Shown in pieces: positions 26,672 to 64,000 of a DNA stretch of 64,000 bases. The stretch spans positions 186,001-250,000 of the forward strand of contig NZ_JAHCDI010000003.1 in the NCBI RefSeq assembly GCF_019697375.1, in the 5' to 3' direction. Source of the DNA: Micromonospora tarapacensis. Lineage in GTDB: Bacteria > Actinomycetota > Actinomycetes > Mycobacteriales > Micromonosporaceae. Every line of letters begins with the position of its first letter. Position 1 is the stretch's first letter. The notes under the pieces were generated by a model. The model was not told the DNA's origin. It did not search any database and saw nothing but the letters and a program-made list of their open reading frames with translations. The translations under genes were made by a program, and so were the position numbers.

Positions 26672-26745
26672 GCCCCTGTAGCTCAGCTGGCCAGAGCACC
26701 CGCCTTGTAAGCGGGATGTCGCCGGTTCGATCCCGGCCGGGGGCT
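26672..26745 (+). tRNA. tRNA-Thr(TGT)
   Basis: A 74-nt cloverleaf. Acceptor stem GCCCCTG/CGGGGGC, D stem GCTC/GAGC, anticodon stem CCCGC/GCGGG with loop CTTGTAA (anticodon TGT, reading ACA), T stem GCCGG/CCGGC with loop TTCGATC, and discriminator T. CCA is not encoded. It is the probable integration target of the element that follows: the tyrosine integrase gene starts 132 bp after its 3' end. Confidence 0.95.
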
Positions 26746-26877
26746 CAAATCATTCACTACCTGCGCAAACGTCGGTGAGCCCTTGAGAAAGGCAAACCGT
26801 ACGATGCTTAGGGACTACCCGCCTATGCACTCCGCGGCTGATCCGCGCTGGTGGGGCCTCGGACGAGGGTTGGCGAC

Positions 26878-27891
26878 ATGACCCGCCAACACCCCAAGAT
26901 CCGACGCCGTGACCCCGGCCCCTACCGGGCCTGGATCGCCTCCTGGACGCTCAGCCTTCAAGCCGCCAGGCGTAGTCAGAAGACCATCGCCGGCTACGTC
27001 GACGCGGCCGCGTTCCTCGCCGGCTGGCTCCTGGCCCACCATCCGACCCTGACCGATTGGGATCAGGTAAACCGCGACCACGTTCGCGGCTTCTTTGCCT
27101 GGCTTGCCCGGCCGTCGGGCGACGGAAAGCCGTGCCCTCATGCCCTGGTTGATCCTTCGGCCGCGCCACCGGGGTGCCGGGGCTATGGGAAGGGGTACGT
27201 CAACCACGTCGGTCGAGGACTGCAGCAGTTCTTCAGCTGGTACGCCGCAGAGGAGGACCTGCCCAACCTCTTCGACAAGGTCGACGTGCCGGCGGCGCCC
27301 AAGAGCGACGAGGCTCCGCCTGCGGTCCTGACCCCGGAGCAGCTGGGCGCGCTCATCAAGGACTGCGAACGTGGCAGAGACTTCGAGAGCCGCCGCGACG
27401 CGGCGATCTTGCGTCTGTTCGCCGCCGGCGGACTCCGCCTCGCCGAGCTGGCGCTGCTCCAGGCCGACGACGTCAGCCCACACGGCCGGACAGCCGTGGT
27501 CACAGGTAAAGGCAGCCGGCAGAGGATCGTGCCATTCGACCAGCGCGCGGCTTTGGCGCTCGACCGGTACCTGCGGCTGCGGGCGAAGCACCCTGCGGCC
27601 AGCCTGACCTCCGCGTTATGGCTCGGGGTGCGCCGGCGTCAGGGCATGACCCCGTCTGGCATCTACCAGGCGATCGTCCGACGAGGGCGGCGTCTCGGGG
27701 TGCCCATTCACCCGCACCTGCTGCGTCACACCTGGGCGCATCGGTGGCTCGACGCCGGCGGGGCTGAGGGCGACCTCATGGCTCTGGCCGGATGGGACTC
27801 GCCGCAGATGCTGCGCCACTACGGCCGGTCCGCACGATCTGCACGGGCTCGCCGGGCGTACGACCGGATCGACGTCATGGGTGGGATTTGA
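26878..27891 (+). CDS. tyrosine-family site-specific integrase
   Basis: A 337-residue recombinase from ATG 26878 (MTRQHPKIRRRDPGPY; ACGAGGG upstream). The N-terminal SAM-like core-binding domain (about 15-130, SQKTIAGYVDAAAFLAGWLL, GLQQFFSWYAAEEDLPNLFD) precedes the catalytic domain. Catalytic residues are R187 in AAGGLRLAELALL, H280 and R283 in HPHLLRHTWAHRWL, and nucleophile Y315 in MLRHYGRS; the beta-hairpin Lys is probably in VTGKGSRQRIVP. It has the XerC/D-like size and fold rather than the long lambda type. Its position right after tRNA-Thr marks the left attachment site. Confidence 0.92.
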   Translation: MTRQHPKIRRRDPGPYRAWIASWTLSLQAARRSQKTIAGYVDAAAFLAGWLLAHHPTLTDWDQVNRDHVRGFFAWLARPSGDGKPCPHALVDPSAAPPGCRGYGKGYVNHVGRGLQQFFSWYAAEEDLPNLFDKVDVPAAPKSDEAPPAVLTPEQLGALIKDCERGRDFESRRDAAILRLFAAGGLRLAELALLQADDVSPHGRTAVVTGKGSRQRIVPFDQRAALALDRYLRLRAKHPAASLTSALWLGVRRRQGMTPSGIYQAIVRRGRRLGVPIHPHLLRHTWAHRWLDAGGAEGDLMALAGWDSPQMLRHYGRSARSARARRAYDRIDVMGGI

Positions 27892-28103
27892 TCATTTAGT
27901 AAGGGTTCCTTAACCAGGAGTTAAGACGATGTGTGGGTAGCCGGCCGGGTGGTCCTTGCGTTGTCAACGGTTGCTGGCGGTGGAGAGACAGGGGATGACC
28001 TTGGGATCTCGGACCGTTACCGTGCTGTCACGCGGCTGGGACGACGAGGGTGAGACGTGGGACCAGCCGCCGACCCGCCAGCAACCCAGGAGGCTCACCC
28101 CAG

Positions 28104-28436
28104 ATGGACGATCAGGAGACCCGCACATCTGCATCTCTGCGTCCCGACCAGCTATGGCTTCTCGCGGCCGCTGTCGTGACGGCCGTGGTGGCCACGGTGC
28201 ATCTACTATCCCACGACCTCGACGAATCGCTGTCGCCCATGCTCGCCGGAGTTGTGGTCGGATCATGGTGCGTGTACGCCACCACCAGGTCCGAGGCGCG
28301 GACGGCTGACCGCATCGACGCCCTACGGCGCGAACTGCAGCAGCACCGGACCGAGGACTTCGCAGCAGGATTCGTCGAGGGCGCGGGCGGCGTCGGCACC
28401 GGCCGCGTGGTCCCGATACGCAGGTCTGCGACGTAG
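28104..28436 (+). CDS. small two-helix membrane protein, unknown function
   Basis: A 110-residue protein from ATG 28104 with a CCAGGAGG site. Two hydrophobic segments (LWLLAAAVVTAVVATVHLLS and LSPMLAGVVVGSWCVYATTR) are followed by a charged helical tail (EARTADRIDALRRELQQHRT). The topology suggests a membrane hairpin with a cytoplasmic coil. It lies alone between the integrase and the leftward GntR gene. No family is recognised. Confidence 0.6.
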   Translation: MDDQETRTSASLRPDQLWLLAAAVVTAVVATVHLLSHDLDESLSPMLAGVVVGSWCVYATTRSEARTADRIDALRRELQQHRTEDFAAGFVEGAGGVGTGRVVPIRRSAT

Positions 28437-28448
28437 ACCGCTGAGGGT

Positions 28449-28588: not shown

Positions 28589-28999
28589 TTACCGGCAGGT
28601 CAGCTCAGTCGTTGATGCGGGGTACTCCCCAACGATCCGACCGCCCACCGTCACCACCAGGACGTGCTCGCCGACTGCGACACCCAACGCGTGACGTTGC
28701 GCGTGTGACGCTGGCAGACTCACCACCGACGCACCCCGCGGCACTGAGACGCGGTGCCGCTCTGCTGCATAACGCACCCGCGTACCGTAGCTCGGCTCGG
28801 TCTCCACCAGACCCTCGGCGCGTAGCACCCCCAGGGCCCGCCGTACCGTCTCGCGGCTCACGCCGTACGTCTGCTCTAACCGTTTGCTCGACGGCAGCAA
28901 CCCTCCCGGCGCGACCTCGCCGGCCTCGATCGAGGCACGCAGCAGGTCGGCAAGCTGCTGGTAGACAGCCCGCCGACCTGCCGCGCCGAAGTCGATCAT
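28589..28999 (-). CDS. GntR-family regulator
   Basis: From ATG 28999 (MIDFGAAGRRAVYQQLADLL; an in-frame ATG at 29029 is the alternative) about 136 residues. The GntR winged helix is clear: LLRASIEAGEVAPGGLLPSS, KRLEQTYGVSRETVRRALGV, LRAEGLVETEPSYGTRV. A short C-terminal segment (RHRVSVPRGASVVSLPASHA, VGEHVLVVTVGG) replaces the usual full effector domain. In AICEs such as pSAM2 a GntR protein (KorSA) silences transfer genes; a comparable role here is inferred from position between integrase and transfer-like module. Confidence 0.82.
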   Translation of the reverse strand: MIDFGAAGRRAVYQQLADLLRASIEAGEVAPGGLLPSSKRLEQTYGVSRETVRRALGVLRAEGLVETEPSYGTRVRYAAERHRVSVPRGASVVSLPASHAQRHALGVAVGEHVLVVTVGGRIVGEYPASTTELTCR

Positions 29000-31202: not shown

Positions 31203-31412
31203 CTACGCCTCGGGCCGGCCGGCCTTGCGCATGACCTCGGCGCGGCGCAGCTGGTAGACGCCGCGGGTCGACAGCGGCTTGGTTCGCCACCCCTGGCCCT
31301 CGTCACCCCACTCGCGGGCGCGTTGCTCCGGGTCGGCGAGTGAGCGCTGCACGGTGCGGGCGGACACCTCCAAGACCTGGGCGGCCTCGCGGACGGTCAT
31401 CCACTCGCTCAA
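31203..31412 (-). CDS. small excisionase-like HTH protein
   Basis: The likely start is TTG 31412 (GGGGAGCGG upstream); an ATG at 31400 (MTVREAAQVLEV) is the alternative. The 69-residue product begins with a MerR/Xis-type helix-turn-helix, TVREAAQVLEVSARTVQRSL, followed by a basic wing region (GWRTKPLSTRGVYQLRRAEV). Size and fold fit the excisionases that partner tyrosine integrases, but it lies 3.3 kb from the integrase and could equally be a small repressor. Confidence 0.55.
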   Translation of the reverse strand: MSEWMTVREAAQVLEVSARTVQRSLADPEQRAREWGDEGQGWRTKPLSTRGVYQLRRAEVMRKAGRPEA

Positions 31413-31545: not shown

Positions 31546-32700
31546 ATGACGAACTGGTTCCGTGCCGACTCTGCGGCCTGGGGTGAGCGCATCGCCCTCG
31601 CCACCGCCGTAGCGCTGACCGCCAAGGGCGAGTACGACCTGGCCGTCCTGGCGCACTTCGACAAGGCGATCGCGTGGCTCTTCCCGGTGATGCTCGACGT
31701 CTACGTGATCACGAGCTTCCACAAGCGTCGCCGTGCGGACATGCTCGTCGCCCTTGCCCTGATGCTGGGCTGTCAGGTGGCCGTCCACCTGGTGCCGGTG
31801 TTCATCGCCCCGGGTGAGGAGGTCCCCTGGGGCCTCGTGATGGCGGTCGCGTGCGTCGCTCCGATCGTCGTGGTCAGGGTGAAGATGCTGACCGGAAAGA
31901 CCACAGCCGAGCACGCCGCGGAAGAGCACGCCGCCCGGAAGACGGAAGAGGTTGCCCAGCTACACGCCCGGGCGGAAGAGGCCGACCGGAAGGTGAGGGA
32001 AGAGGCCGCCGCCCGGAAGGCGGAAGAGACGGCTCGGCGGAAGGCGGAAGAGACCGCCGAAGCGGAACGGACCGGCCGCGAGGTCACGGAAGCGGAAGCC
32101 GTCCGGGACGCGGAAGAGCACGCCGCGGCCGCCCAGAAGGCGGCAGCAGAGATCAGCCGGCTCACCCGCCACTCCGAGGAGGTGCAGGCGTCCGCTCGTG
32201 ACGCCCGTGCCCAGGCCGCCGCAGCCTCCGAGCTGGCGGCCCGGACCGCCGGCCAGCTGGAGGAGGCACGGGCGGCCGCTGACCGCGCCGCTGGAGAGCG
32301 TGCCGCCGCAGAGCAGCGCGCCGCGGCCATTGCTGAGGCCCGTCAGGCCGTCGTCGACGAGCTGGCCCGGATCCGTGCCGCGCACGACCGACTGGCGCAG
32401 CGCGTTGAGGGGAACGCGATCCGGAAGACCCGGAAGTCGCTCCCTTCCGGCCCGACGGCCCGGAAGAGCGGACCGGCGGTCCCGATCGACCTGCCGGAAG
32501 AGGTGCCGCCCGTTCCGGGCGTCAGCCAGGAACTCGCCGCCCGCGTGCTTGAGGCGCTGCGGGCGGAACCGGAAGCCAAGCAGGACCGCATCGCCGAGCT
32601 GGCCGGAACGACGGACCGGACGGTCCGGACCGTCCTGCGCGGCCTGGCGGCCCTTCCGGCCGCCATCGAAGACACCGCGACCGACCGCGCCGCGGTCTGA
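31546..32700 (+). CDS. DUF2637-like membrane protein with long coiled coil and C-terminal HTH
   Basis: A 384-residue protein. The N-terminal 115 residues contain four hydrophobic segments (ERIALATAVALTAKGEYDLA, AIAWLFPVMLDVYVITSF, VALALMLGCQVAVHLVPVFI, GLVMAVACVAPIVVVRVKML), resembling DUF2637/Spd-type proteins of actinomycete plasmids. Residues about 120-290 are an uninterrupted Ala/Glu/Lys/Arg coiled coil. The C-terminal segment QELAARVLEALRAEPEAKQD, RIAELAGTTDRTVRTVLRGL is a winged-helix-like domain. A membrane anchor, a rod and a DNA-binding head would suit tethering DNA to the membrane during transfer; that is inference. It heads the rightward run ending in the FtsK/TraB-like gene. Confidence 0.7.
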   Translation: MTNWFRADSAAWGERIALATAVALTAKGEYDLAVLAHFDKAIAWLFPVMLDVYVITSFHKRRRADMLVALALMLGCQVAVHLVPVFIAPGEEVPWGLVMAVACVAPIVVVRVKMLTGKTTAEHAAEEHAARKTEEVAQLHARAEEADRKVREEAAARKAEETARRKAEETAEAERTGREVTEAEAVRDAEEHAAAAQKAAAEISRLTRHSEEVQASARDARAQAAAASELAARTAGQLEEARAAADRAAGERAAAEQRAAAIAEARQAVVDELARIRAAHDRLAQRVEGNAIRKTRKSLPSGPTARKSGPAVPIDLPEEVPPVPGVSQELAARVLEALRAEPEAKQDRIAELAGTTDRTVRTVLRGLAALPAAIEDTATDRAAV

Positions 32701-32788: not shown

Positions 32789-33133
32789 ATGCACGCCCCC
32801 TACACCGCCACCGGCACGGTCCCCCAGGACTCGCCGCTGCGCGCGATCGCCGGCCGCACCGTCACCGCGCCAGCGGAAACGCTGGAGGACCTGCTCCGGC
32901 GCGTCACCGAGATGCGCAAGGCCGGCGTCACCCCGGTCGTCCAGGTGGCCCGGCCGGTGCGGTGGCTCTGGATCGCCGGCGCACTGACCGGCACCACGGT
33001 CATCGCGGTCGCCGGCGGCGTCATCGCGATCGTCGTCGAGCAGTACGAACTGGCGTGGACCGCGGCCGGGGCCATGCTCCTGGCCGTCGTCGGGATCTAC
33101 GCCGTGCTGTCGCACATGGAGCTGGAGCGATGA
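32789..33133 (+). CDS. small two-helix membrane protein (Spd-like)
   Basis: A 114-residue protein from ATG 32789 with a strong GAGGAGG site. A charged N-terminal half (ETLEDLLRRVTEMRKAGVTP) is followed by two membrane helices (LWIAGALTGTTVIAVAGGVI and LAWTAAGAMLLAVVGIYAVL). The stop overlaps the next start (ATGA). Small membrane proteins in this position in AICEs are called spread (Spd) proteins; similarity here is in size, topology and context only. Confidence 0.55.
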   Translation: MHAPYTATGTVPQDSPLRAIAGRTVTAPAETLEDLLRRVTEMRKAGVTPVVQVARPVRWLWIAGALTGTTVIAVAGGVIAIVVEQYELAWTAAGAMLLAVVGIYAVLSHMELER

Positions 33134-33348
33134 GGGCCACCATCGCGGTCCTGATCATCGCCGTCGTGTCGCTGCTTGCGGTCATCGCCCAGCTCAAGCA
33201 CAAGCGGGTGCTGGCAGTCGGCCTGGTCGTGCTGGCCGGCATCCTGGTCGGCAACGCGCCCGGCCTGGTAGGCGACGCCGGGCAGTGGCTGGCCGACTTC
33301 CTGTTCATCACCGTGCCCGACTTCGTCCGCGGCCTGGTGGACGAATGA
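33130..33348 (+). CDS. small membrane protein
   Basis: A 72-residue protein from ATG 33130, coupled by ATGA overlaps to both neighbours. Two hydrophobic stretches (IAVLIIAVVSLLAVIAQL and VLAVGLVVLAGILVGNAPGL) precede an amphipathic C terminus (WLADFLFITVPDFVRGLVDE). It is part of the transfer-like operon; function is unknown. Confidence 0.55.
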   Translation: MRATIAVLIIAVVSLLAVIAQLKHKRVLAVGLVVLAGILVGNAPGLVGDAGQWLADFLFITVPDFVRGLVDE

Positions 33349-34145
33349 GGCCAGTCGAGGGTCTGCTGCTGGCCGGGGCGGTCGGGGTCGCCGTCCTGCA
33401 GTCGCCCACCGGCCGGTCAGCGGCGGCCGCCGGCATCGGCAAGGCCGTCCGAGGGGCCGGCCCCACCGCCGGCCGGGTGGGGACCCTGGCAGCAGGTGCG
33501 TGGGCGCCGGTGAGCGCCTGGCGGCGGCGGAGCCCAGGCGGCGGCCCCGACTTCTGCCCGCTCGGGTGCGACTGGTCGCAGCCGCACCCGAGCATCAAGG
33601 GGCTGGACGATCACCTGCGTAAGGCGCACCGGGCAGCGCCGGCCGCCCCGGCGCCGGCGCCGGCCACCCGGAGCGCGACGCAGACCGCGCCCGCCAGCGG
33701 CGGTACCCGCCCCGCCGAGGAGGTCACGGAGATCGCACCCGGGGTCCGAATCAGCCGAACGATCACCCAAGTAATCGACAAGATTGGATTGCATATGGAC
33801 GAGTTTCGCGCCGTGAACAGGGCACTCGCCGCCGCCGGCGAGATCGAACCGAAGACCCTGCTGCAGCTACTGGAGGTTCTGACCGGTGTGCAGACCGCAC
33901 TCACCGGCGTCGCCAACCTGGTCAACGACGTCACCGACTACGCCGACCGGCAGATGTGGGTCGACCTGCGGGCCGTCAGCCTGCTGTACGACGCGGCGGG
34001 CAACGTGCTGGTCGAAACCCAGACGATCCGGGCCGCCATGAAGAAGATCCGCGACCTGTACGCCGAGGAGATCGCGGTCGAGGAGAAGGCCGACGAGGGC
34101 AAGGTCCGCCCACTCAACCCGCAGGTCGTCCAGACGGCCGCATGA
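33345..34145 (+). CDS. hypothetical protein with zinc-finger-like motif
   Basis: A 266-residue protein from ATG 33345 (ATGA overlap with the preceding gene). A short hydrophobic N terminus (GLLLAGAVGVAVLQSP) is followed near residues 71-93 by a C2H2-like arrangement: CPLGC, then HLRKAHR. An Ala/Pro linker leads to a helical C-terminal half (SRTITQVIDKIGLHMDEFRA, LLQLLEVLTGVQTALTGVAN, IRAAMKKIRDLYAEEIAVEE) that may form a coiled coil. It probably works with the downstream translocase; no family is recognised. Confidence 0.55.
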   Translation: MRPVEGLLLAGAVGVAVLQSPTGRSAAAAGIGKAVRGAGPTAGRVGTLAAGAWAPVSAWRRRSPGGGPDFCPLGCDWSQPHPSIKGLDDHLRKAHRAAPAAPAPAPATRSATQTAPASGGTRPAEEVTEIAPGVRISRTITQVIDKIGLHMDEFRAVNRALAAAGEIEPKTLLQLLEVLTGVQTALTGVANLVNDVTDYADRQMWVDLRAVSLLYDAAGNVLVETQTIRAAMKKIRDLYAEEIAVEEKADEGKVRPLNPQVVQTAA

Positions 34146-34200
34146 CCGCCGGCCCGGGTACCACCAGGTGGTGCCCGGGCCTGACGTGGAAGGAGCCGGC

Positions 34201-37350: not shown

Positions 37351-37361
37351 GGCGAGCCTCC

Positions 37362-37676: not shown

Positions 37677-37685
37677 GAGCCCCCC

Positions 37686-38060: not shown

Positions 38061-38064
38061 CACC

Positions 38065-40793: not shown

Positions 40794-40808
40794 AGTCGTC
40801 CTCCCTGG

Positions 40809-41741: not shown

Positions 41742-41743
41742 CG

Positions 41744-48163: not shown

Positions 48164-48164
48164 G

Positions 48165-48949: not shown

Positions 48950-48950
48950 G

Positions 48951-49843: not shown

Positions 49844-49897
49844 CTCCCGAGGGGCGAGGGTGGCCCGGGCGCTCCGCCTGCGCGCCCGGGCCGGCTC

Positions 49898-51985: not shown

Positions 51986-52034
51986 CCTGTGCTCTCCTTC
52001 GTGATGGGTCCGCGGCCTGGCAGCAGCGGGATGG

Positions 52035-52726: not shown

Positions 52727-52730
52727 CGGT

Positions 52731-54169: not shown

Positions 54170-54171
54170 GG

Positions 54172-54498: not shown

Positions 54499-54517
54499 GT
54501 CGATCACCTCCCTCAGG

Positions 54518-56377: not shown

Positions 56378-56813
56378 CGGTCAGCTGGGCCCGGTCCGAC
56401 GGGGTCAAACCGAAGCGGGCCGCCCAGGTCTGCAGCTGCCGATCCGCCTGGCCCAGGATGACCGTCCACGGGTTCCGGGTGACCCGGTTGCCGGTCTGCT
56501 TCCCGTTCTTGTCGAAGACGGGCAGCTTGACGACCTCACCCTCCTGGTCCAGGGCGGCGGCCGCCTTGCGTCGGCGGGCGGCCGCGTCGCAGACGATGGC
56601 GAAGGTTTCGACGTCCCAGGCCGTCAGCACGCCCTTGCGGATCAGATCCGGGGCGTACTCCGCCCAGATGTCCACCGCAGCCCTGGTGAGCCACTCCGGG
56701 GGCTCGATTTCCGTCGTCGACGGCACCGGCTCGTCGGTGTTAACCCGGTCAGACCGGGTCCCGCGCACCAGCTTGAGCGCCGTCGGCGCCGGGTGCGGAC
56801 CACGTTTGCCCAC
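56331..56813 (-). CDS. terminase small subunit (P27 family)
   Basis: About 160 residues from GTG 56813, chosen because the family begins with GKRGP-P-P as in VGKRGPHPAPTALKLVRGTR and GAGAGG lies 10 nt upstream. The rest (EPPEWLTRAAVDIWAEYAPD, GVLTAWDVETFAIVCDAAAR, NPWTVILGQADRQLQTWAAR, FGLTPSDRAQL) is the P27 signature. It binds the packaging site and hands DNA to TerL. Confidence 0.9.
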   Translation of the reverse strand: MGKRGPHPAPTALKLVRGTRSDRVNTDEPVPSTTEIEPPEWLTRAAVDIWAEYAPDLIRKGVLTAWDVETFAIVCDAAARRRKAAAALDQEGEVVKLPVFDKNGKQTGNRVTRNPWTVILGQADRQLQTWAARFGLTPSDRAQLTGGDGRRDPAEDLLTG

Positions 56814-56870: not shown

Positions 56871-57191
56871 TTACCGCGGCGTTTCGACCCCCCTGACCTG
56901 CAGAGATCCGACCCGCCCCTCCCCATCGATCGACGGGTGGTCGGCGGCGCCGTGGCCAGGGTCCGCGCCGTGCTCGGCGTGGGTGGTGATGGTCGAGCAC
57001 TTTACCGCGTGCGGTCGGTATGCGGCCAGAGCCGCCGCGCCAGCGACCAACACGATCTCGATGTCCGGAAGGGCTTTCTCCAGATCGCGGACCATGCGCT
57101 CGGCGTTGGCCTGCGACACCGTGGGTATCGCCACCACCAGCGTGTCACCTGACCGCACCACCAGGCCCTCGCTCAGCTCCAGCTCGCTCAC
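56871..57191 (-). CDS. small hypothetical protein beside the HNH gene
   Basis: A 106-residue protein from GTG 57191 (VSELELSEGLVVRSGDTLVV), coupled to the HNH gene by a GTGA overlap. A Rossmann-like beta-alpha-beta (TLVVAIPTVSQANAERMVRD, LEKALPDIEIVLVAGAAALA) is followed by a His-rich tail. Similar short proteins accompany HNH/terminase genes in actinobacterial phages; function unknown. Confidence 0.55.
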   Translation of the reverse strand: MSELELSEGLVVRSGDTLVVAIPTVSQANAERMVRDLEKALPDIEIVLVAGAAALAAYRPHAVKCSTITTHAEHGADPGHGAADHPSIDGEGRVGSLQVRGVETPR

Positions 57192-57523
57192 TCGATCTCT
57201 TCTCCTGGTCTTGAGGTACGCGGACGACCGAAGCCGCCGTCGTGCTGAACCGTCTTTTGGCCGTGGCACTTGCGGCACAGCGCCTGCAGGTTCCACTCCT
57301 CACGGTTGCTGGTGTCCCCGTCGATGTGGTCGGTGTGTCGTGAGCTGCGCTTCTTACAGCCCTGGCACCACGGGTGAGCAGCCAGGAACTCTGCTGAAAT
57401 CCGTAGCCAGTCCTCGTCGTAGCCCAGCTCCTGCCGGGTCGGCCGGGGCCGCTGGTGCCGGCCGCAGGCATCCCCTCCCGGACAGCCGGGGCGGGTGCAG
57501 CGCCGTGGTGCGCGGGTCGGCAT
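57188..57523 (-). CDS. HNH endonuclease next to terminase
   Basis: A 111-residue protein from ATG 57523 (MPTRAPRRCTRPGCPGGDAC). The HNH fold is complete: CQGCKKRSSRHTDHIDGDTS with the DH pair, NREEWNLQALCRKCHGQKT closing the zinc site. HK97 gp74-like HNH nucleases encoded beside terminases are needed for specific DNA cleavage at packaging; that role is likely here. It is the first gene of the late operon after a strong hairpin. Confidence 0.88.
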   Translation of the reverse strand: MPTRAPRRCTRPGCPGGDACGRHQRPRPTRQELGYDEDWLRISAEFLAAHPWCQGCKKRSSRHTDHIDGDTSNREEWNLQALCRKCHGQKTVQHDGGFGRPRTSRPGEEIE

Positions 57524-57544
57524 CGTCCACCCCCGGAAGATGCG

Positions 57545-57579
57545 CCGAGCGCCCCGCACTGGTGGCGCGGGGCGCTCGG
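57545..57579 (-). terminator. perfect hairpin between early and late operons
   Basis: A 13-bp inverted repeat CCGAGCGCCCCGC (57545-57557) / GCGGGGCGCTCGG (57567-57579), 9-nt loop, 66 bp after the stop of the early-operon gene and 21 bp before the HNH start. It could terminate early transcription, with a late promoter or antitermination allowing read-through. Confidence 0.75.
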
Positions 57580-57645
57580 TCCCGGAGCCGATCCCGGGTG
57601 ACTGGCAGGGTAGATCGTGGGGCAGGGCAGACTCCTGCTCCCCGA

Positions 57646-58419
57646 TCATGCACCGGATTCGGACATTCCTGCAAACCCGGGACCGTCGTTCTGGCCGTTC
57701 GGATGATCAGGTAGCCAGGCTCCGCCGTGGCCGGAGTGTCCGGATCGGATCCGTTCGGTGGTGACGGCGCGGGCCTCGGTCTGCGCGGCGATGTGCTCGG
57801 CGAGGACGTTGATGCTGCCGTCGACGTCGTCCCACACCGACAGACACTCGAGGCAGAACGCCGATTTGCGGGCCAGGTTGACCCGCAGCGTGTCGGCTTT
57901 GCCGCAGGTCAGGATCGGGCACGTGGCGCGTGGCCGGTAGGCCTCGCTGGTCCAGCCGATCAGGGCCTGGGCTTGGGCCCGCCAGAGCCGCATCGCCCGG
58001 CACAGCGCGGCGACCTGGTCGTCGTCCACGATCCGCAGCTCGCCGGCGGCGGCGGCCAGCTGGCGGATGTTGCCCTGGGTGGTGTCGCGCAGTGGCAGGT
58101 CGAGGTCCCAGCACCACCGGGCGGCCTCGGCGGCGATCGCGGCGCCGCGGCCGAGGGCCTCCCAGTGGCCCGGTGGTGTGGACTGCGGCACGGGCCGGGC
58201 GCCCGGGTTGTCAGTCGACGAGGTGACGCCGTGGACCGCGATCTCGGCGAGCTGCGCCAGAAGCCCGTCGTGTGTCTCGGTGTGCACGCCGACGAGCTTG
58301 GTCCGGCCGCCTCTGGTCTTGGTGTAGAGGGTTTCGTGGGCGCGGTAGCAGTCAGTGAGCTGGGCGGCGTAGGCGCGGATGTCGTCGACGAGCAGTTGCC
58401 GCCGGCGGGACGGCGTCAC
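57646..58419 (-). CDS. zinc-motif protein of the early operon, unknown function
   Basis: A 257-residue protein from GTG 58419, coupled to the HTH gene (GTGA). The helical N-terminal half (RRQLLVDDIRAYAAQLTDCY, RLWRAQAQALIGWTSEAYRP) precedes a C4 arrangement CPILTCGKADTLRVNLARKS then CLECLSVW. Proteins of this layout are common in actinobacterial phages (DUF7340/7341-like); no activity is known to me. The last 50 residues are variable. Confidence 0.6.
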   Translation of the reverse strand: MTPSRRRQLLVDDIRAYAAQLTDCYRAHETLYTKTRGGRTKLVGVHTETHDGLLAQLAEIAVHGVTSSTDNPGARPVPQSTPPGHWEALGRGAAIAAEAARWCWDLDLPLRDTTQGNIRQLAAAAGELRIVDDDQVAALCRAMRLWRAQAQALIGWTSEAYRPRATCPILTCGKADTLRVNLARKSAFCLECLSVWDDVDGSINVLAEHIAAQTEARAVTTERIRSGHSGHGGAWLPDHPNGQNDGPGFAGMSESGA

Positions 58420-58691
58420 GGCGAGTCCTTGCCGGTCTGGGTGGTGAGGCCGAGAGCGGCGAGCACCCGGGCCGGTACGGGAGTGTCTCCGCGTTCCCAC
58501 CGTCCAATCTCGCCAGGGCGGGTGCCGATCCGGCGGGCGAGGTCGCCTTGGGTCATCCGCATCTCCCGGCGGAGTCGCCGCAACCGTGTCCCGTCGCGTG
58601 GGGCGGGCGGCGGGCCGGGGGTGACGGTGGCGTAGTGGCGGGGGTGACGGTAGGCCACCGGGCCGAGGTCCGGGTCGGCGTTCCAGCGCAC
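58416..58691 (-). CDS. small XRE-type HTH protein
   Basis: A 91-residue protein from GTG 58691 with AAGGAG. The HTH is TRLRRLRREMRMTQGDLARR, IGTRPGEIGRWERGDTPVPA, close to Cro/CI folds. The N terminus (AYRHPRHYATVTPGPPPAPR) is flexible. It probably regulates the late switch or acts as a small repressor; coupled to the next gene. Confidence 0.75.
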   Translation of the reverse strand: MRWNADPDLGPVAYRHPRHYATVTPGPPPAPRDGTRLRRLRREMRMTQGDLARRIGTRPGEIGRWERGDTPVPARVLAALGLTTQTGKDSP

Positions 58692-58693
58692 GG

Positions 58694-58900
58694 CTACTCC
58701 TTGCCGTTGGCGAGGGTGTGGAGGGACTCGGCGATCGACACCAAGGCGGCGGTCCGGACGACGTCGGCCAGGTCGGGCATCGCGGCGCGCATCTCCCGGG
58801 CGGCCATCGGCGAGAGGCTGTCGGCGGCGATTGCGGCCGCCGCGTTCTGGAGCTGGGCGAAGGCGTTGCGGGCGGCGGTCATCGGGTCAGGGTGCGCCAT
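58694..58900 (-). CDS. 68-residue helical protein
   Basis: From ATG 58900 with AGGAGG (MAHPDPMTAARNAFAQLQNA). It is entirely helical, Ala-rich (AREMRAAMPDLADVVRTAAL, VSIAESLHTLANGKE). Its start lies inside the 3' end of the second HNH gene and its stop is 2 bp before the HTH gene start. Function unknown. Confidence 0.55.
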   Translation of the reverse strand: MAHPDPMTAARNAFAQLQNAAAAIAADSLSPMAAREMRAAMPDLADVVRTAALVSIAESLHTLANGKE

Positions 58901-59963
58901 GGTGGTCCTCCTGAGGTTGGGCGGAAGTGGCCGGGACTGAGCCCGGGGGCCAGATGTACGGATCTGCGCCAGCGGGGGCGCGGGAGCGCCGGTGGTAGAC
59001 GTCGGGGGAGTCGGGGGCCCGGATGGGCTGGGTGGGTTGGCGGGTCGGACCGGGCTGATCAGCGCGATGCCCGCCCCGACCCGCCCCGGGCCCCTTCCCG
59101 GATGACGGCACCTGCTGTTCCTGCTGGTGATCGCCGTCATCAGGGCGCACGTCGGCCCCGGTGGTGTCGTCCGGATCGGCGTCGGGATCGTCTGGTCGAT
59201 CAGTGATCGGATCAGCGTCCGGATCACTGTCATGTCGCTGTTTCGTCGCTGATCTGTCGCTGATCTGTCGGTGATCGGCGGGGTCCTGCAGCAGCAGCCC
59301 GCGAGCGGTCCAGGCGGCCCGCTCGGCGGCCGTGGGGACCGGCAGGAGGGGCAGGTCGGCCTCGTACGGGGTGCGGTGGCCCTTGTGCTCGTTGCAGCGT
59401 CCGCAGACCGTGACGAGGTTGGTCCCGTCGGGGCCTGCGGGCTGGTCCGGGTCGACGTGGTCGTAGGCGAGCACCTTGCGTCGGTCCCGGGCGCGGCCGG
59501 CCTTCGGGGACAGCGGTCCGGAGCGGCAGTAGCGGCAGCAGCCGCCGTCGCGGTCATAGACCATCGCCTTGAGCCGCGGGTCGCGCAGGTCGGCTCGCTG
59601 GGCCCGGTTCCGCAGATACTCCGCCTTGGAAGGGTTACGGCGGAGGAAGGCGTGGATGCGGTAGGCGTAGCCGTCGATCCAGGGGGCGTCACCGAGGCAG
59701 GCGCATTCGTCGCCGGGGCGGTGCAGCCGGGGGGCCTGGTCGAGCACCGAGGTGCAGAGCAGGTCGAGGATCTGGCGGCGGCCGCGGCAGTACCGCAGTG
59801 CGGTGCCCTCGGTGAGGTAGCCGTCGGTCAGCTGGTGCGACGCGGCGGACTTGAGGCGGGCGGAGGCGGCCTGCAGCGCGTCGACGCGGTCGCCGCGGCC
59901 GCCGGCGAGGACGTCCCAGACCGGGTCGTCCGCGAAGGTGTCGCTCTCCAGCCAGTACGGCAT
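58887..59963 (-). CDS. HNH endonuclease with long acidic Asp/Pro tail
   Basis: A 358-residue protein from ATG 59963. A helical N-terminal domain (FADDPVWDVLAGGRGDRVDA, LQAASARLKSAASHQLTDGY) precedes an HNH core: DGGCCRYCRSGPLSPKAGRA, LAYDHVDPDQPAGPDGTNLV, TVCGRCNEHKGHRTPYEADL. The C-terminal third is low complexity, rich in Asp, Pro and Gln (DSDPDADPITDRPDDPDADP). The matching DNA (59173-59277) is a cluster of GATC-containing repeats. Homologous HNH proteins sit in replication modules of actinobacterial prophages; the substrate is unknown. A tiny upstream frame ends in its start codon. Confidence 0.82.
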   Translation of the reverse strand: MPYWLESDTFADDPVWDVLAGGRGDRVDALQAASARLKSAASHQLTDGYLTEGTALRYCRGRRQILDLLCTSVLDQAPRLHRPGDECACLGDAPWIDGYAYRIHAFLRRNPSKAEYLRNRAQRADLRDPRLKAMVYDRDGGCCRYCRSGPLSPKAGRARDRRKVLAYDHVDPDQPAGPDGTNLVTVCGRCNEHKGHRTPYEADLPLLPVPTAAERAAWTARGLLLQDPADHRQISDRSATKQRHDSDPDADPITDRPDDPDADPDDTTGADVRPDDGDHQQEQQVPSSGKGPGAGRGGHRADQPGPTRQPTQPIRAPDSPDVYHRRSRAPAGADPYIWPPGSVPATSAQPQEDHHGAP

Positions 59964-59989
59964 TAGCGGATCAACCTAATGATCATCAT
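59963..59989 (-). promoter_or_regulatory. 8-codon leader frame coupled to the HNH gene
   Basis: GGAGGAG precedes ATGATG at 59989. The frame encodes MMIIRLIR and stops with TAA that shares its A with the HNH start codon (TAATG). The HNH start itself has no good ribosome site, so ribosomes probably reach it by reinitiation after the leader. Confidence 0.5.
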
Positions 59990-60013
59990 GGATGCTCCTC
60001 CCTATATGCGGGT

Positions 60014-60046
60014 GGCGCGGCCACCCTGGTTCGGGGTGGCCGCGCC
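60014..60046 (-). terminator. perfect hairpin inside the early operon
   Basis: A 13-bp inverted repeat GGCGCGGCCACCC (60014-60026) / GGGTGGCCGCGCC (60034-60046) with a 7-nt loop, between the coiled-coil gene (stop 60074) and the leader of the HNH gene. It may terminate or attenuate; the HNH unit probably has its own promoter. Confidence 0.7.
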
Positions 60047-60073
60047 GTTCGTGTGCTGCTCAGTGCATGGTGG

Positions 60074-60535
60074 CTACATGCCGAAGTACCGCCGCCACCG
60101 CGACCTGCGCGGCGGATCCTGCGCCACGATTTCGGCCTGCCAGCCCAGGCAGCGGGTGCACAGCGGCCCGAGCCTCGGGTCGAGGCCGATCGCGGTCTGC
60201 TCGCCGTCGGACGCCCAGGCGCAGCCGTCCCGGCAGGCCATCAGGTCGTGGCAGCCGCACGCCCTGCACACCGGCACGCCGCCGAGCGCTGCGTGCTGGG
60301 CGAGGTCGGTCCGGAGCTGCGACAGCTCCTCGGCGAGGCGGGCCCGCCCGAGGTTGGCGAGGTCGAGCTGGTGGCGGTAGCGGTCGGCCTTTGCCTCAGT
60401 GTGGGTGAGCGCCTGGTGGAGGTCGTCGACGCGCACCCACGCCTGCTGTAGGCGGGCCTCCATGTCCCGGCACTGCTGGCGGGCACGGTCGATCTCGGTC
60501 ACGGTGTCGGTCGAGGCAGGTGCGGGGTGGGTCAT
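60074..60535 (-). CDS. coiled-coil protein with zinc-binding Cys cluster
   Basis: A 153-residue protein from ATG 60535 (overlapping the upstream gene, ATGA). Residues about 13-85 form a coiled coil (EIDRARQQCRDMEARLQQAW, RLAEELSQLRTDLAQHAALG), followed by a Cys-rich module VCRACGCHDLMACRDGC and CTRCLGWQAE. This compact zinc module recurs in actinobacterial phages; function unknown. Confidence 0.6.
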   Translation of the reverse strand: MTHPAPASTDTVTEIDRARQQCRDMEARLQQAWVRVDDLHQALTHTEAKADRYRHQLDLANLGRARLAEELSQLRTDLAQHAALGGVPVCRACGCHDLMACRDGCAWASDGEQTAIGLDPRLGPLCTRCLGWQAEIVAQDPPRRSRWRRYFGM

Positions 60536-60825
60536 CGGGAACCTCCATCGTTGGCGGGGCGGCAGGCGGGGCGGCAGGCGGGGCAGCGTGATCCGGGTAG
60601 GCCCCAGACCGGCCGGTAGCAGCCGGCGCAGGACACGTACTCGTAGCCGGCCGGCGGCGGCAGGTCGTTGTGGCCGGTGTCGGCCGGGGCATCGCCGGCG
60701 AGCGCGGCGTCGACCCGGGCCCGGCCGCGGCGGGCACGGGCGGCGGCCTCCTCCGGGTTGCGGACCTCTCGGGCGGCCAGGTCGGCCTCCCAGGCGGGCC
60801 GGCCGCGCCAGCGTGGCCGCGTCAC
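60532..60825 (-). CDS. small zinc-ribbon protein
   Basis: A 97-residue protein with a helical basic front (MTRPRWRGRPAWEADLAARE, AAARARRGRARVDAALAGDA) and a C-terminal ribbon YVSCAGCYRPVWGLPGSRCP ending CPAC. ATGA overlaps on both sides show a tightly coupled operon. Function unknown. Confidence 0.6.
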   Translation of the reverse strand: MTRPRWRGRPAWEADLAAREVRNPEEAAARARRGRARVDAALAGDAPADTGHNDLPPPAGYEYVSCAGCYRPVWGLPGSRCPACRPACRPANDGGSR

Positions 60826-61256
60826 CGACGCCGTCGCTTTGCCGCTCGTCGGGCGGCCCGGTTCCCGCCCGGCGGTACCTGCGCCATGGCGTGCTGAATC
60901 GCCGCCATGTCGCCTCTCCCGCCGCCGGATACCGTCACCGGCGCCGCGTCACAGCTCGGCTCCCACCGCTGGCCGACCAGCCGCCACCGACACCCGGGAC
61001 GACTATCCGAAACGGTGACCGGCTGGGTACAGCGGCACATCGCCCCAGCCAGCAGCCGCTCCGCCAGCCCCAACGCCGCCGCCGTGGGCGACCGGTGCCC
61101 GTCAGAGATGACCCGCGCGCCTCGGTAGGCGGCGAATGCGTACCACTGGACATCCTCTGCCGGCTCGTCGTCGTCGCCGGTGTGTCCGATCTCGAACCCA
61201 GCGGCGCCGGCCCGGTCCACCAGGTTGGCGCACGCGATCACGATGTCGTCGTTCAT
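60822..61256 (-). CDS. hypothetical phage protein, conserved actinophage type
   Basis: A 144-residue protein from ATG 61256. It has an N-terminal alpha/beta part (NDDIVIACANLVDRAGAAGF, GWYAFAAYRG-like segment VQWYAFAAYRGARVISDGHR), a Cys pair in AMCRCTQPVTVSDSRPGCRW, RLVGQRWEPSCDA and a basic NRAARRAAKRRRR end. The CRC..SDSRPGCRWRLVGQRWEPSCD pattern recurs in prophages of Streptomyces and relatives; no activity is known. Confidence 0.65.
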   Translation of the reverse strand: MNDDIVIACANLVDRAGAAGFEIGHTGDDDEPAEDVQWYAFAAYRGARVISDGHRSPTAAALGLAERLLAGAMCRCTQPVTVSDSRPGCRWRLVGQRWEPSCDAAPVTVSGGGRGDMAAIQHAMAQVPPGGNRAARRAAKRRRR

Positions 61257-61304
61257 CCTTGGCTTTCCTCTTTCGGCTGGTCGAGGGTGGTCACGGGTCG
61301 GTCC

Positions 61305-62211
61305 TCACGCGCTCGGGCGAATCGGGATGACGTCGGCCAGGGCCTGGCCGGGCAGGCCGGGGTCGGGCAGGTCGGTGTGCCGGATCTCGCCGGCGAGGAC
61401 CCGCCGGGCCAGGGCCGCGCCAGGGCCACGCCGGGGGCCTGGCGGGCCGCGAGGTCAGCGCGTCACGCCGGCACCGGCCGCTCGGAGGCCGGCGGCGGAG
61501 CCGGGGTGTCTGGGCGCGGACGGCGGCCAGGTGGTCGACGAGGTCGTCGGGCGGCAGGCTGCGGACGTACGCTCCGAGGGACTTCGGCGGGCGGCGGGCG
61601 GCGGTCTTGATCTGTTCGATTACCCGGGTCGCTTCGTCGTCATCCACACCGAGTCGAGCGGCGACGTAGGCGATGGTTCCGCCGCGCTGCTGATGATGTT
61701 GAGAGGTGACTGGAGGAGAGGAGTTGCGTTCCCCCGTGGGAACTTCCGTGGTTCCCTGTGGGGAACCACGGAAGTTCGAAAGGGAACTACCGGCCGGTGG
61801 AAGGGAACTACCAGTTGGTGCCGGTAGTTCCCCAGTAGGAACTACGGAACTGTCGGTGGTTCCCTGCTGGTCCTGGTCGGTAGTTCCCTCCGTCGGCGCT
61901 GCGGCGGCGACCGGGATGGTCAGCCGGTACAGCGTCGGCCGGCGCGTGATCACCCGGACCGGCACCAGCCAGCCCGCGTCGACCAGGATCTGTAGCGTGG
62001 ACGTCACCAGGGCGCGCTTACCGATGCTGGCCTGCGCCACGGCCCGGTCGTAGGTCAACCAGGCCAGGTCGGCGGCCGCCGTCCGATCGCCCTGGGCATC
62101 CCGGACGTGGCGGGCGTACGTCAGGGCGAGCAGTTTCGCGCGGGGCGGCAAGGACGACTCCCAGACCGCGTCCTGGTAGACGTCGGCGTGCCAACGAGCC
62201 GGGGCCGTCAT
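61305..62211 (-). CDS. replication-initiator-like protein, C-terminal frame breaks
   Basis: From ATG 62211 (MTAPARWHADVYQDAVWESS). The N-terminal 100 residues form a winged-helix typical of phage replication initiators (LPPRAKLLALTYARHVRDAQ, TYDRAVAQASIGKRALVTST, LQILVDAGWLVPVRVITRR). The middle is a Thr/Pro/Ser linker forced by DNA repeats (TEGTTDQDQQGTTDSSVVPT). A helical domain follows (IAYVAARLGVDDDEATRVIE, KSLGAYVRSLPPDDLVDHLA). The end is split over three frames between about 61400 and 61455. The last piece, ALARRVLAGEIRHTDLPDPG and GQALADVIPIRPSA, stops at 61305, and the span is two bases short of whole codons. An iteron cluster inside the gene supports an origin-binding role. Confidence 0.65.
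61728..61888. other. iteron and palindrome cluster, candidate replication origin
   Basis: Inside the initiator-like gene. A perfect 16-bp inverted repeat AACTTCCGTGGTTCCC (61741-61756) / GGGAACCACGGAAGTT (61761-61776) with a 4-bp spacer; GTTCCC/GGGAAC at 61728-61743; and 10-mers of the type GGGAACYACC at 61782-61791 and 61803-61812, inverted at 61823-61832, 61855-61864 and 61879-61888, plus GGAACTAC at 61838. About nine units in 160 bp, in both orientations. Origins embedded in the initiator gene are known from lambda-type phages. Confidence 0.65.
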
Positions 62212-62336
62212 CGGCCACCCGCAGCGTGTCGTGGGTGTGCGGTACGGTGAGGCTTCACATTTGGTCCTTCGGGATCGTTGACGGCGCGGCACCTCTGACC
62301 AGGTGCCGCGCCGTTGTTGTGGGTGGGCAGGGTCAT
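62208..62336 (-). CDS. possible 42-residue coupling frame
   Basis: ATG 62336 overlaps the upstream stop (ATGA), and its TGA overlaps the ATG of the initiator gene. The product (MTLPTHNNGAAPGQRCRAVN) is not recognisable and the frame contains a perfect hairpin, so it may be non-coding leader sequence instead. Confidence 0.25.
   Translation of the reverse strand: MTLPTHNNGAAPGQRCRAVNDPEGPNVKPHRTAHPRHAAGGR
62281..62314 (-). terminator. perfect hairpin upstream of the initiator gene
   Basis: A 14-bp inverted repeat ACGGCGCGGCACCT (62281-62294) / AGGTGCCGCGCCGT (62301-62314) with a 6-nt loop, 19 bp beyond the stop of the preceding gene. Terminator or attenuator controlling the initiator gene. 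Confidence 0.7.
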
Positions 62337-62512
62337 GCGGCCCTCGTCTTGGGGCGCAGGGCCTCCAGCAGCACCCGGCGGTGCTCTCTGATGTCATTGC
62401 TGGGCCGCGGTTTCGGTGCCGGCAGCGGCGGCGGCGCGGTCTGCTCGGCGGCGGCCGTGTCCGGGTCGCCGTAGCGCTCGCTGAGGACCTGGGCGAGACG
62501 CGCGTCAGACAT
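62333..62512 (-). CDS. 59-residue hypothetical protein
   Basis: From ATG 62512 (GGAGGTGACCC upstream): MSDARLAQVLSERYGDPDTA, an Ala/Pro linker, then DIREHRRVLLEALRPKTRAA. Good ribosome site and tight spacing to both neighbours support it. It could be a small helical DNA- or protein-binding factor; no family is recognised. Confidence 0.55.
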   Translation of the reverse strand: MSDARLAQVLSERYGDPDTAAAEQTAPPPLPAPKPRPSNDIREHRRVLLEALRPKTRAA

Positions 62513-62723
62513 GGGTCACCTCCAACTGGTCGAGCAGGCTCGGCCCGTCCTGCGCGTCGACCGGCAGGGTCGAGGCGGTCGACGCAGCAGCGAGGCGGCG
62601 CGCGATGGCACGCCGCTTGCGCCAGCAGCCGGCACCGACGCGGCGAGCGCGGGACACGGGCGTGATGCACGGGGTGTCGCAGTCCAGGCAGGGCACCACC
62701 GGCAGGTCGTCAGGCCGGTCCAC
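62505..62723 (-). CDS. 72-residue protein with CxxC motif
   Basis: From GTG 62723 (VDRPDDLPVVPCLDCDTPCI) with GAGGAG upstream. A CLDCDTPC cluster is followed by a basic helix (RARRVGAGCWRKRRAIARRL) and an acidic end. It overlaps the upstream gene by 14 bp and the downstream gene by 8 bp. Function unknown. Confidence 0.55.
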   Translation of the reverse strand: MDRPDDLPVVPCLDCDTPCITPVSRARRVGAGCWRKRRAIARRLAAASTASTLPVDAQDGPSLLDQLEVTHV

Positions 62724-63774
62724 CGTCGGACTCCTCGGGGGGTGTGTGGTCGGGGCACAGACCGCTGTCCGGGTCGGGAGTGGCACCGCAGGGGGTACGT
62801 CCGGTGGGAGGCAGCCACGGGCAGGCGGGCGGGCCGCCGGGGTGCGCGTCGATGGCCATCCGCGTGAGACCGGCGAGCATGGCGGTGGTGAGCGCCGCCG
62901 CGTCGCTGCCGTCGACAGGGACGGACGAGAGTCCGGATCTGCCGTAGGTGGGGCTGGAGTGGGGGTGGTCGTACCAGGTGCGGTTGTGCCAGTCCGTCCA
63001 CCGCAGATGGAAGTCGTCCTCCCGCTCCTGCCGGATCGACGGATCGGTGAGGCCGGGCGAGTACGGGCCCCGGGTCAGCTCAGAAAGCCGTGCCAGAGGG
63101 GTGGTGTGACCGCCGTAGTGGCCCAGCTTGCTGCGGACGGTGTGGATCAGGCGGCGTCCTACCAGCGACGTCAGCACGGGCACCAGGCGGTCCGCGGCGA
63201 TCCCACCGAGCACGCGGTCGATCCCCGCGAGCGCACCCTCGGCGGACGGGTACGCGCGGCGGGCGACGACGTCGACGAGAACCTGCCCGTCGAGGGTGAT
63301 CGCGTGGACGTGGTACGGGGCGCCCCAGTCGGTCAGCCCGTACGCGGCGATCAGCACGGTGTCGGGGTCGTCGAGGACGTCGCCGGCCCACGCCACGGCG
63401 GCCGCACGCAGCCGCAGCCACGATGGCCGGGCCGCGGCGGACCGTTCGGTGACGACGCAGCCGGCGCACAGTCGCCGGCCACGATCGATGAACTCCAAGG
63501 GGTCGGGTCTGGTGGCCGCGCACCGGGCGCAGGTCCGTGCGGCCGTCCAAGCGGCCTGCCGGCCCGGCGACAGCGCTGGCAGCGGCGTCGACGCGGTGAT
63601 CTCGTACAGGTCGGTGTGCTTGTTGCCGTGGTAGAACAGCGTCGCTGCCGGCTTCTGGCCCTCGGCGGGGCGGCGGCGCAGACGCCGCAACATCGTCACG
63701 GTGGCCAGGCCATCGGGGATCTCACCGACCCGGTACAACGGCCGGCCGGGGTTGAGCTTACGACTGGCGGTCAT
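62710..63774 (-). CDS. early protein with zinc motif, possible degenerate exonuclease fold
   Basis: A 354-residue protein. An N-terminal module (LYRVGEIPDGLATVTMLRRL, RRRPAEGQKPAATLFYHGNK) with two CxxC pairs (TCARC, LCAGC) precedes a central segment AWAGDVLDDPDTVLIAAYGL, APYHVHAITLDGQVLVDVVA. This is laid out like actinobacterial DEDD exonucleases but lacks the Asp-x-Glu catalytic start. The C-terminal part carries a Cys/His cluster (ACPWLPPTGRTPCGATPDPD). It is part of the early operon; catalytic activity is doubtful. Confidence 0.55.
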   Translation of the reverse strand: MTASRKLNPGRPLYRVGEIPDGLATVTMLRRLRRRPAEGQKPAATLFYHGNKHTDLYEITASTPLPALSPGRQAAWTAARTCARCAATRPDPLEFIDRGRRLCAGCVVTERSAAARPSWLRLRAAAVAWAGDVLDDPDTVLIAAYGLTDWGAPYHVHAITLDGQVLVDVVARRAYPSAEGALAGIDRVLGGIAADRLVPVLTSLVGRRLIHTVRSKLGHYGGHTTPLARLSELTRGPYSPGLTDPSIRQEREDDFHLRWTDWHNRTWYDHPHSSPTYGRSGLSSVPVDGSDAAALTTAMLAGLTRMAIDAHPGGPPACPWLPPTGRTPCGATPDPDSGLCPDHTPPEESDGGPA

Positions 63775-63983
63775 GATGACCCTTCACTCGTGCGGACATG
63801 GGCGCGGATGTACTGGCGGTATCGGCCGGCGTCCGGGCCGGCCAGGACGTGCGGGTTGCCGACCTCGATGAGGCGGCCGGCGGCGCCGAGTTGGGCGCGG
63901 AGAGCGGTGATCTCCTCGTAGGTGCCGACAGCCCAGATCTCCAGGCCGAGGCTGGTGTGGGCGCGAGGCTTGGCGCTAGGCAT
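63771..63983 (-). CDS. 70-residue hypothetical protein
   Basis: From ATG 63983: AHTSLGLEIWAVGTYEEITA, LRAQLGAAGRLIEVGNPHVL, AGPDAGRYRQYIRAHV. A compact alpha/beta fold repeatedly seen in actinophage early regions; coupled to the next gene by ATGA. Its own upstream region is cut by the window end, so operon start is not visible. Confidence 0.6.
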   Translation of the reverse strand: MPSAKPRAHTSLGLEIWAVGTYEEITALRAQLGAAGRLIEVGNPHVLAGPDAGRYRQYIRAHVRTSEGSS

Positions 63984-64000
63984 GGCGGCCGCCGTGCGGC

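Follow-up and report, generated by a model that had tools for sequence, protein, structure and literature searches.

The stretch of DNA analysed here, referred to as the window, comprises 64,000 nucleotides of Micromonospora tarapacensis (contig NZ_JAHCDI010000003.1). It carries a mosaic temperate siphophage of Micromonospora, integrated at a tRNA-Thr gene. Between the integrase and the lysis genes of this phage and its relatives lies a variable slot, and comparison of sequences indicates that the slot holds a plasmid-type operon. In the window, this operon (31546-36153, rightward) begins with a gene for a DUF2637-related membrane rod protein, which contains an array of CGGAAG repeats within its own coding sequence, and closes with an FtsK-family motor. 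A predicted plasmid-like tether in the slot, with or without a pump, is well supported. We give an even chance to the proposal that, in four phages, the tether with its own array and a double-stranded DNA (dsDNA) pump serve to spread excised phage DNA without lysis or to segregate it.

The element is an insertion of 41,849 bp (41.85 kb), from window coordinate 26747 to 68595, and its right end lies 4.6 kb past the end of the window. The sequence-only reading had called for a right attachment (att) site beyond position 64000. It lies at 68553-68595, where the 3' end of the tRNA (26704-26746) recurs as a perfect 43-bp repeat (attR). No internal att copy, near 36.8 kb or elsewhere, was found in the 76 kb searched; the best other match to the 51-base core, 29/51, is background. 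The site is empty in 14 of 29 other loci, the best-scoring of 150 other genomes, where the DNA right of attR abuts the tRNA with a gap of 0-15 bases. The remaining 15 gave no empty-site match within the 1.5 kb or less examined and are uninformative either way. Because of the att pair, the lack of an internal att and the empty sites in relatives, we take the 41,849 bp to be one inserted block, and it is near certain that this is a single prophage. The two sides of the element are convergent, meeting between 36757 and 36878 as had been read from the sequence (36.76-36.88 kb), and each is similar to a known element type. This would suit an actinomycete integrative and conjugative element (AICE) lying in tandem with a separate prophage at the same tRNA-Thr. 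The att data, the empty sites and the same operon position in relatives effectively rule out such a tandem, to which we assign next to no probability. Only one integrase was found among the proteins scanned, as had been claimed; the operon occupies the same position in four phages, and some phages have half of it.

The features of a temperate siphophage are present: an integrase and att repeat at a tRNA, with TerL, portal, major capsid protein (MCP), tape measure protein (TMP) and tail genes. A complete siphovirus head-tail operon had been proposed, and PHROGs matches to head, packaging, connector and tail genes bear this out. The leftward late genes encode TerS, TerL, portal, a protease-MCP fusion, head-tail connectors, tail tube, chaperone, TMP and tail proteins. 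The tRNA-Thr, integrase, GntR and XRE regulators, small membrane proteins and FtsK of the sequence-only reading are likewise all there (Pfam, open reading frame (ORF) calls). AICEs move without particles and are not known to have a head-tail operon; this element has a complete late operon. PMC3218068 defines AICEs by Int, Rep and Tra, and its list has RepSA without a Pfam model of its own. Tra is represented here by an FtsK/SpoIIIE domain (PF01580, 33.2 bits, cut-off 24). The Pfam scan took in 26 of the 64 proteins called in the element, and none of these matched an AICE replication family (RepSA, RepAM, Prim-Pol). The element is not classed as an AICE. The earlier view of a pSAM2-type AICE joined to a phage is not supported, given this result and an FtsK that scores below the TraB cut-off.

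Five of the nearest integrase relatives (68-75% identical) were read. Four lack FtsK (in genomes G081, G123, G057 and G026) and one, UViG_2585427557, has it. All of the former are at tRNA-Thr and have phage late genes, and we therefore regard the element as a phage with an exchangeable cassette. The sequence-only reading had set a combined element against halves that occur alone at tRNA-Thr: the phage without FtsK is found there, and FtsK without a phage was not found among the integrase relatives inspected. Late structural genes were matched in six of eight integrase-relative loci (8-40 kb each), with no matches in G084 (8.4 kb examined) and G120. The G081 phage keeps synteny with the window along almost the entire element, has head-tail proteins mostly 57-93% identical and shares the left host neighbour (90%); no FtsK match was found in it.

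The slot operon opens with a large protein, mostly with predicted membrane helices, followed in most phages by a protein of about 115 aa with two transmembrane (TM) stretches. Homologues of the window's 114-aa version occur in KC606, tarensis and G081 (42-45%), with no match in UViG_2585427557. Two endings follow. The first consists of a 72-aa 2-TM protein, a protein of about 266 aa and FtsK, and is found in the window, KC606 (79-80%), tarensis (66%) and UViG_2585427557 (70%). Here the 72-aa protein occurs in all four FtsK-bearing phages, and the 266-aa protein has homologues of about 50% in all three relatives. In the second ending, a 78-aa protein is accompanied by one with 2-4 predicted TM stretches and one with a single TM stretch. 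This ending is found in five phages (G081, G123, G057, G026 and pMLP1), none of which has a match to the 72-aa protein. All four FtsK loci readable in context, of 20 FtsK-family members aligned, are convergent with phage lysis/late genes. A tRNA-Thr prophage on G034 contig C34 carries in the same slot, after a multi-TM protein, a 575-aa ATPase with weak HerA/AAA_10 matches (L145:13970-15694), possibly a third ending.

The slot is found in phages with different structural genes and integrases. KC606, tarensis and UViG_2585427557 show no match to the window terminase, portal and capsid genes, and parts of their tape measure match at 27-42%. UViG_2585427557 has an integrase of the window type (72%), tarensis has other recombinases, and the KC606 contig gave no integrase match. 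The phage pMLP1 has the same slot with another integrase and no tRNA-Thr att core. It is a circular 43,352-bp public record, 'Micromonospora phage pMLP1' (CP058906.1, L176), which we take to be the source of an integrating plasmid vector. Its DUF2637-type gene and the surrounding 6-kb block are identical to those of the G104 element (L169), and the gene is identical in UViG_647533185; the three were therefore counted as one. Since FtsK-less phages keep the large slot protein, some with their own array, the tether and array may form the slot's core, to which the pump would be one of at least two alternative endings.

The first slot protein of the window belongs to a family of 59 matches, most of whose named members are Micromonospora. 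One is named DUF2637 domain-containing, and homologue P0061 carries PF10935. Alignment of the family to a DUF2637 set with hhalign gave an E value of 4.4e-5 over 44 columns. The protein had been described as a membrane-anchored coiled-coil protein. The rod stands, as AlphaFold2 (AF2) models one helix over residues 132-300 with high confidence, and the protein can further be identified as DUF2637-related; the membrane part is modelled less securely. A helix-turn-helix (HTH) at 340-381 is also modelled with high confidence. Foldseek returned no significant match for the rod protein, the top of the 50 matches listed being mostly HTH/winged-helix, all with E above 0.5. Matches to the membrane part occur in 51 plasmid records (44 from Streptomyces), and no match spans more than 80% of the query. 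In Micromonospora, plasmid pVMKU has a DUF2637-type gene on the same strand as, and upstream of, genes for a type IV secretion system (T4SS)-coupling-type protein and an FtsK.

The array was found while looking for a clt-like repeat. The gene contains 17 plus-strand CGGAAG copies, 10 in one codon phase and 7 in another, and 2 on the other strand. It holds 17 of the 31 plus-strand CGGAAG copies and 8 of the 9 CGGAAGAG of the 41.9-kb element. When synonymous codons of the gene were shuffled 1000 times, the count averaged 5.0 and never exceeded 10, short of the observed 17; the two-phase count was reached by none of 200 recodings. Since a motif chosen after being seen is a source of bias, we tested the best 6-mer or 7-mer of any kind, and the recoded genes used for comparison also chose their own best. 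By a strict statistic, a 6-mer count in the second-best codon phase that is reached by 0/200 recodings, 9 of 30 long DUF2637-type genes pass: those of the window, KC606, UViG_2585427557, G123, G034 contig C18, G094, pMLP1/G104, G101 and the Streptomyces NBC_01259 plasmid. This statistic is passed by no control gene (24 tested) and by no short AICE DUF2637 gene (6 tested). The loosest criterion, any of four statistics at 1/200 or less, is passed by 16 of 20 Micromonospora genes from phages, plasmid-sized contigs or chromosomes (one gene partly masked) and by 5 of 10 annotated-plasmid genes. A search of tarensis directed at GGACCA, the KC606 motif, does show enrichment, with the observed level reached in 5 and 1 of 1000 recodings. 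Other embedded repeats were seen in two Streptomyces plasmid DUF2637-type genes (L174:5111-6331 and L180:3123-4274): CCGGTAC in two phases, and TGAGAG with CTCTCAC. The pSVH1-like motif GACCCGGA forms no cluster in the element.

Such an array might have no function and arise as a side effect of coiled-coil codon use (Ala-Glu-Glu, Arg-Lys). The window protein is of the coiled-coil type, and in six Micromonospora homologues of similar HTH, mostly on plasmid-sized contigs, and in pVMKU, GGCGGAA(A) falls almost wholly in one phase, which is weaker evidence for selection at the DNA level. However, the failure of 1000 synonymous recodings, the use of two phases and the strand bias of 17 to 2 argue against a by-product, as do homologues whose arrays lie in non-Ala/Glu stretches and carry other motifs in two phases. 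We consider this explanation quite improbable.

The motif tracks the C-terminal HTH. A DRTVR-type HTH goes with CGGAAG, an MGWTS-type with GGACCAG and, with weak statistics, a SKSYANNW-type with GCCGACC; further HTH types have their own motifs, and some homologues are without any array. UViG_2585427557 and KC606 have a common HTH (70%) and motif with unlike N-termini (32%), as do G081 and G026 (64% and 3%). We infer that the HTH of the DUF2637-related protein binds the array. In cis repeats such as clt or TraB recognition sequences (TRS), the motor itself would be a candidate reader; repeats in cis are present here, with a motif that does not follow the winged helix of FtsK. The FtsK C-termini of the window and KC606 are the most alike of the four (85%), yet their array motifs differ, and FtsK is therefore unlikely to be the reader. 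Some phages without any match to such an FtsK also have arrays, which likewise disfavours the winged helix.

The FtsK is intact and under purifying selection, with a ratio of nonsynonymous to synonymous substitution (dN/dS) of 0.19 against KC606, 0.32 against UViG_2585427557 and 0.35 against tarensis. It belongs to a small family, with 19 of 23 database matches (the window's own included) at least 40% identical. N-terminal membrane helices, Walker A/B and a C-terminal winged helix are conserved in 20 aligned sequences, one N-terminally short, with the Walker motif names read off the alignment. Walker A/B, the FtsK motor fold and the winged helix are features of FtsK/HerA-type dsDNA translocases. 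The AF2 model (predicted local distance difference test, pLDDT, 78.6) matches FtsK motors in Foldseek with a best E of 2.3e-18, and the pCW3 coupling protein TcpA with a TM-score by target of 0.73. Homologues, mostly of 30-35% identity, are common in other Micromonosporaceae genera: 38 of 250 genomes of the family match, a count that includes the window's own genome and G090. Eighteen contexts from other genera gave no match to the phage query genes, a limited set, and two of these contexts are short. Several are compact loci of GntR, a 2-TM protein, DUF2637, FtsK and a recombinase; DUF2637 was aligned in six loci and Pfam-tested in one, and the recombinases were mostly identified by reading sequences. 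In a profile comparison, the phage and AICE-like FtsK align over all domains (E 2.1e-55).

If the operon acts on phage DNA, the excised phage would form a circle, and the DUF2637-related protein would sit in the membrane. Its rod and HTH would bind the CGGAAG array inside its own gene, tethering the circle at the membrane or septum. With help from the small membrane proteins, a hexameric FtsK-type motor could then drive dsDNA through the septum or into an adjacent hypha. The lysogen would thereby spread through, or be retained in, the mycelium without lysis, besides making particles. The circular public record of pMLP1, a phage with the same slot, counts in favour. DNA spread or segregation is our best inference for the operon's job from these comparisons; for spread as such, the case stands at about evens.

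Several observations weigh against this proposal. The window protein itself has no Pfam DUF2637 match above the gathering cut-off, and the AF2 model of its helical membrane part is of low confidence. The loosest array criterion is passed by 2 of 24 controls. By the same criterion no array was found in tarensis, G026, G034 contig C34 and G057 (4 of the 20 Micromonospora genes), in 5 of the 10 annotated-plasmid genes or in any of the 6 short AICE DUF2637 genes. Across 18 genes, the HTH has a partial correlation of 0.60 with the motif profile, and the N-terminus one of 0.53. Because motif similarity also tracks the N-terminus, this covariation test is confounded by relatedness, and a Mantel (matrix-correlation) test separated the HTH from the N-terminus only in part. 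The transfer-like module had been named TraB/FtsK; its FtsK assignment stands, and its TraB assignment falls, since the NCBIfam TraB model (NF041214), collinear over residues 54-459, scores 18.4 bits against a curated cut-off of 800. The 72-aa 2-TM protein and its 64-aa counterpart in AICE-like loci show no significant profile match, and their homology is thus unsupported. Only one of six virus records tested (UViG_2585427557) has FtsK; it is absent from the five chosen for a related portal, which may be fragments, and FtsK is therefore not tied to the window's head module.

The operon could instead be a segregation or stability module without transfer. The tether and array would then be centromere-like, and FtsK would clear or move the excised circle or the chromosomal locus in sporulation septation. 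Relatives that lack this FtsK also have arrays, by the strict statistic in G123 and pMLP1, and pIJ101 SpdA2, which binds sites in its own gene, has an effect on segregational stability and none on transfer (PMC4170104). However, an integrated prophage has no need of its own partition, and the plasmid homologues adjoin transfer-type ATPases; we consider pure segregation rather unlikely. As another option, the lysogen might express the operon as a moron for superinfection exclusion or defence, with the membrane protein capturing incoming DNA that has the same array. This would fit the position between integrase and lysis genes, the operon's own regulators, the nearby phage-family lipoprotein and a weak FtsK match to the MADS8 model (34.5 bits). 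Yet PADLOC assembles no known defence system, and homologous operons lie on plasmid-sized contigs and plasmids; we see little probability in it. Returning to spread by tether and pump, we offer a broader version only tentatively, as a doubtful extension. A class of actinobacterial plasmid and temperate phage proteins, with DUF2637 anchor, rod or linker and HTH, would carry a cognate strand-biased array in its own coding sequence. Protein and DNA address would travel together and co-diverge, and prophages would add the FtsK pump for non-lytic dsDNA spread.

The features of the element are collected in Table 1. Small divergent HTH-like ORFs similar to that upstream of the operon are present in G081, tarensis and G057 (sequences read by eye). 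At the convergence point, a promoter/terminator scan found no promoter-like and one terminator-like site, about the shuffle expectation. The phrog_12816 lipoprotein has homologues among the tail genes of pMLP1 and a G114 prophage, and thus shifts place between phage genomes. The lysin-like gene gave no family match, its role being suggested by position and sequence. The head protease and major capsid protein are apparently fused in one 655-aa ORF (50759-52726), whose matches in two relatives are split into two separate pieces. The portal is 59% identical to that of Streptomyces phage Chymera. Beyond the window, the early region encodes a short GGDEF-domain protein (66103-66711, L006:4103-4711; PF00990, 66.9 bits), and an HTH pair (67541-67798 and 67998-68468) lies near the attR end. 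Plasmid pVMKU also has a GGDEF gene, a few genes upstream of its DUF2637-type gene. In host DNA, ARAGORN called a tRNA with undefined anticodon at 24290-24381, which is probably spurious.

Table 1. Features of the prophage and its attachment site, in window coordinates.
Feature	Position	Strand	Basis and remarks
tRNA-Thr (TGT)	26672..26746	+	last 43 bases (26704-26746) = attL
Tyrosine integrase	26878..27891	+	PF00589, 77.7 bits; phrog_1; 68-75% identical integrases at tRNA-Thr in G123, G057, G081, G026
Small membrane protein, one hydrophobic stretch	28104..28436	+	weak TauE match, below cut-off
Short GntR-family regulator	28589..28999	-	PF00392, 63.2 bits
XRE/HTH_3 regulator, 411 aa	29177..30412	+	PF01381, 47.3 bits; 53% homologue in same place in G081
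Small HTH-like ORF, divergent from transfer-like operon	31203..31400	-	ORF call
DUF2637-related protein: membrane helices, 169-residue rod, C-terminal HTH	31546..32700	+	homologues named DUF2637; hhalign; AF2 model
Array of 17 CGGAAG (8 CGGAAGAG) within DUF2637-related gene	31919..32575	+	two codon phases, 10 + 7
114-aa protein, 2 TM	32789..33133	+	present in phages with and without FtsK
72-aa protein, 2 TM	33130..33348	+	among phages examined, only alongside FtsK
266-aa protein	33345..34145	+	among phages examined, only alongside FtsK
FtsK-family dsDNA translocase	34168..36153	+	membrane helices, RecA motor, winged helix; start 34201 likelier
Lipoprotein, phage family (moron)	36350..36757	+	phrog_12816, E 7.6e-32
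Lysis-end genes: small membrane proteins and lysin-like gene (38065-39075)	36878..39075	-	position and sequence
Tail and connector genes, TMP at 44084-46492	39084..50308	-	PHROGs
Head/packaging: protease-MCP fusion, portal, TerL, TerS	50759..56813	-	PHROGs
HNH endonucleases and early genes	56871..64000	-	region runs on to attR (68553-68595)

No earlier description of the phage group, the slot or the embedded array was found in the literature searched, which covered few subscription papers. Of all the findings, the embedded array is the most novel and the most readily tested. If the reading of it is right, one gene encodes a protein inseparably from its DNA address, and the array could serve as a marker by which to locate similar tethers in plasmids and phages. 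A close likeness is pIJ101 SpdA2 with sps, a spread-type protein with binding sites inside its own gene, and SpdB2 of pSVH1 is a DNA-binding membrane protein that interacts with TraB. According to PMC4170104, which also treats TRS with SpdB2, SpdA2 differs in being a 135-aa protein with sps a palindrome in 1-3 copies, and SpdB2 binding is described as non-specific. AICEs and the Micromonosporaceae FtsK-DUF2637 mini-elements share with the element GntR, DUF2637, FtsK and a recombinase in one small locus and a profile-homologous FtsK; they differ in having no phage-gene match within 20 kb (for the query set used) and a short DUF2637 protein without an array.

Among phages, pMLP1 has the same operon start, a DUF2637-related gene with 18 CGGAAG and a 114-aa protein, in the same slot. 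It differs in its second type of ending, with no FtsK match, a different integrase, no tRNA-Thr att core and structural genes of the KC606/tarensis type. Phi1207.3 of Streptococcus pyogenes is a prophage with structural genes that is reported to transfer by conjugation; it belongs to another phylum, uses serine recombinases, and the abstract names no FtsK operon (PMC4260502). The element also resembles pZL12/phage ZL12 (GQ919031), which combines structural, FtsK/SpoIIIE-like, membrane-protein and integrase-like genes and GntR in one element. The element's FtsK and DUF2637-related protein gave no match to pZL12 in the phage collection at the limits used. The title of the pZL12 paper names a plasmid/lytic phage cycle. 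The clt repeats and pZL12 transfer are treated in PMC3583192, and relatives of pZL12 in PMC4487206 and PMC7157519. Unlike our tRNA-integrated 42-kb prophage, pZL12 has a circular record of 90 kb that encodes ParA/ParB and is described as a plasmid. Should the operon move or maintain phage DNA in the absence of lysis, this set of Micromonospora prophages would combine the life of a phage with plasmid-like spread, as pZL12 is said to do, but in integrated form.

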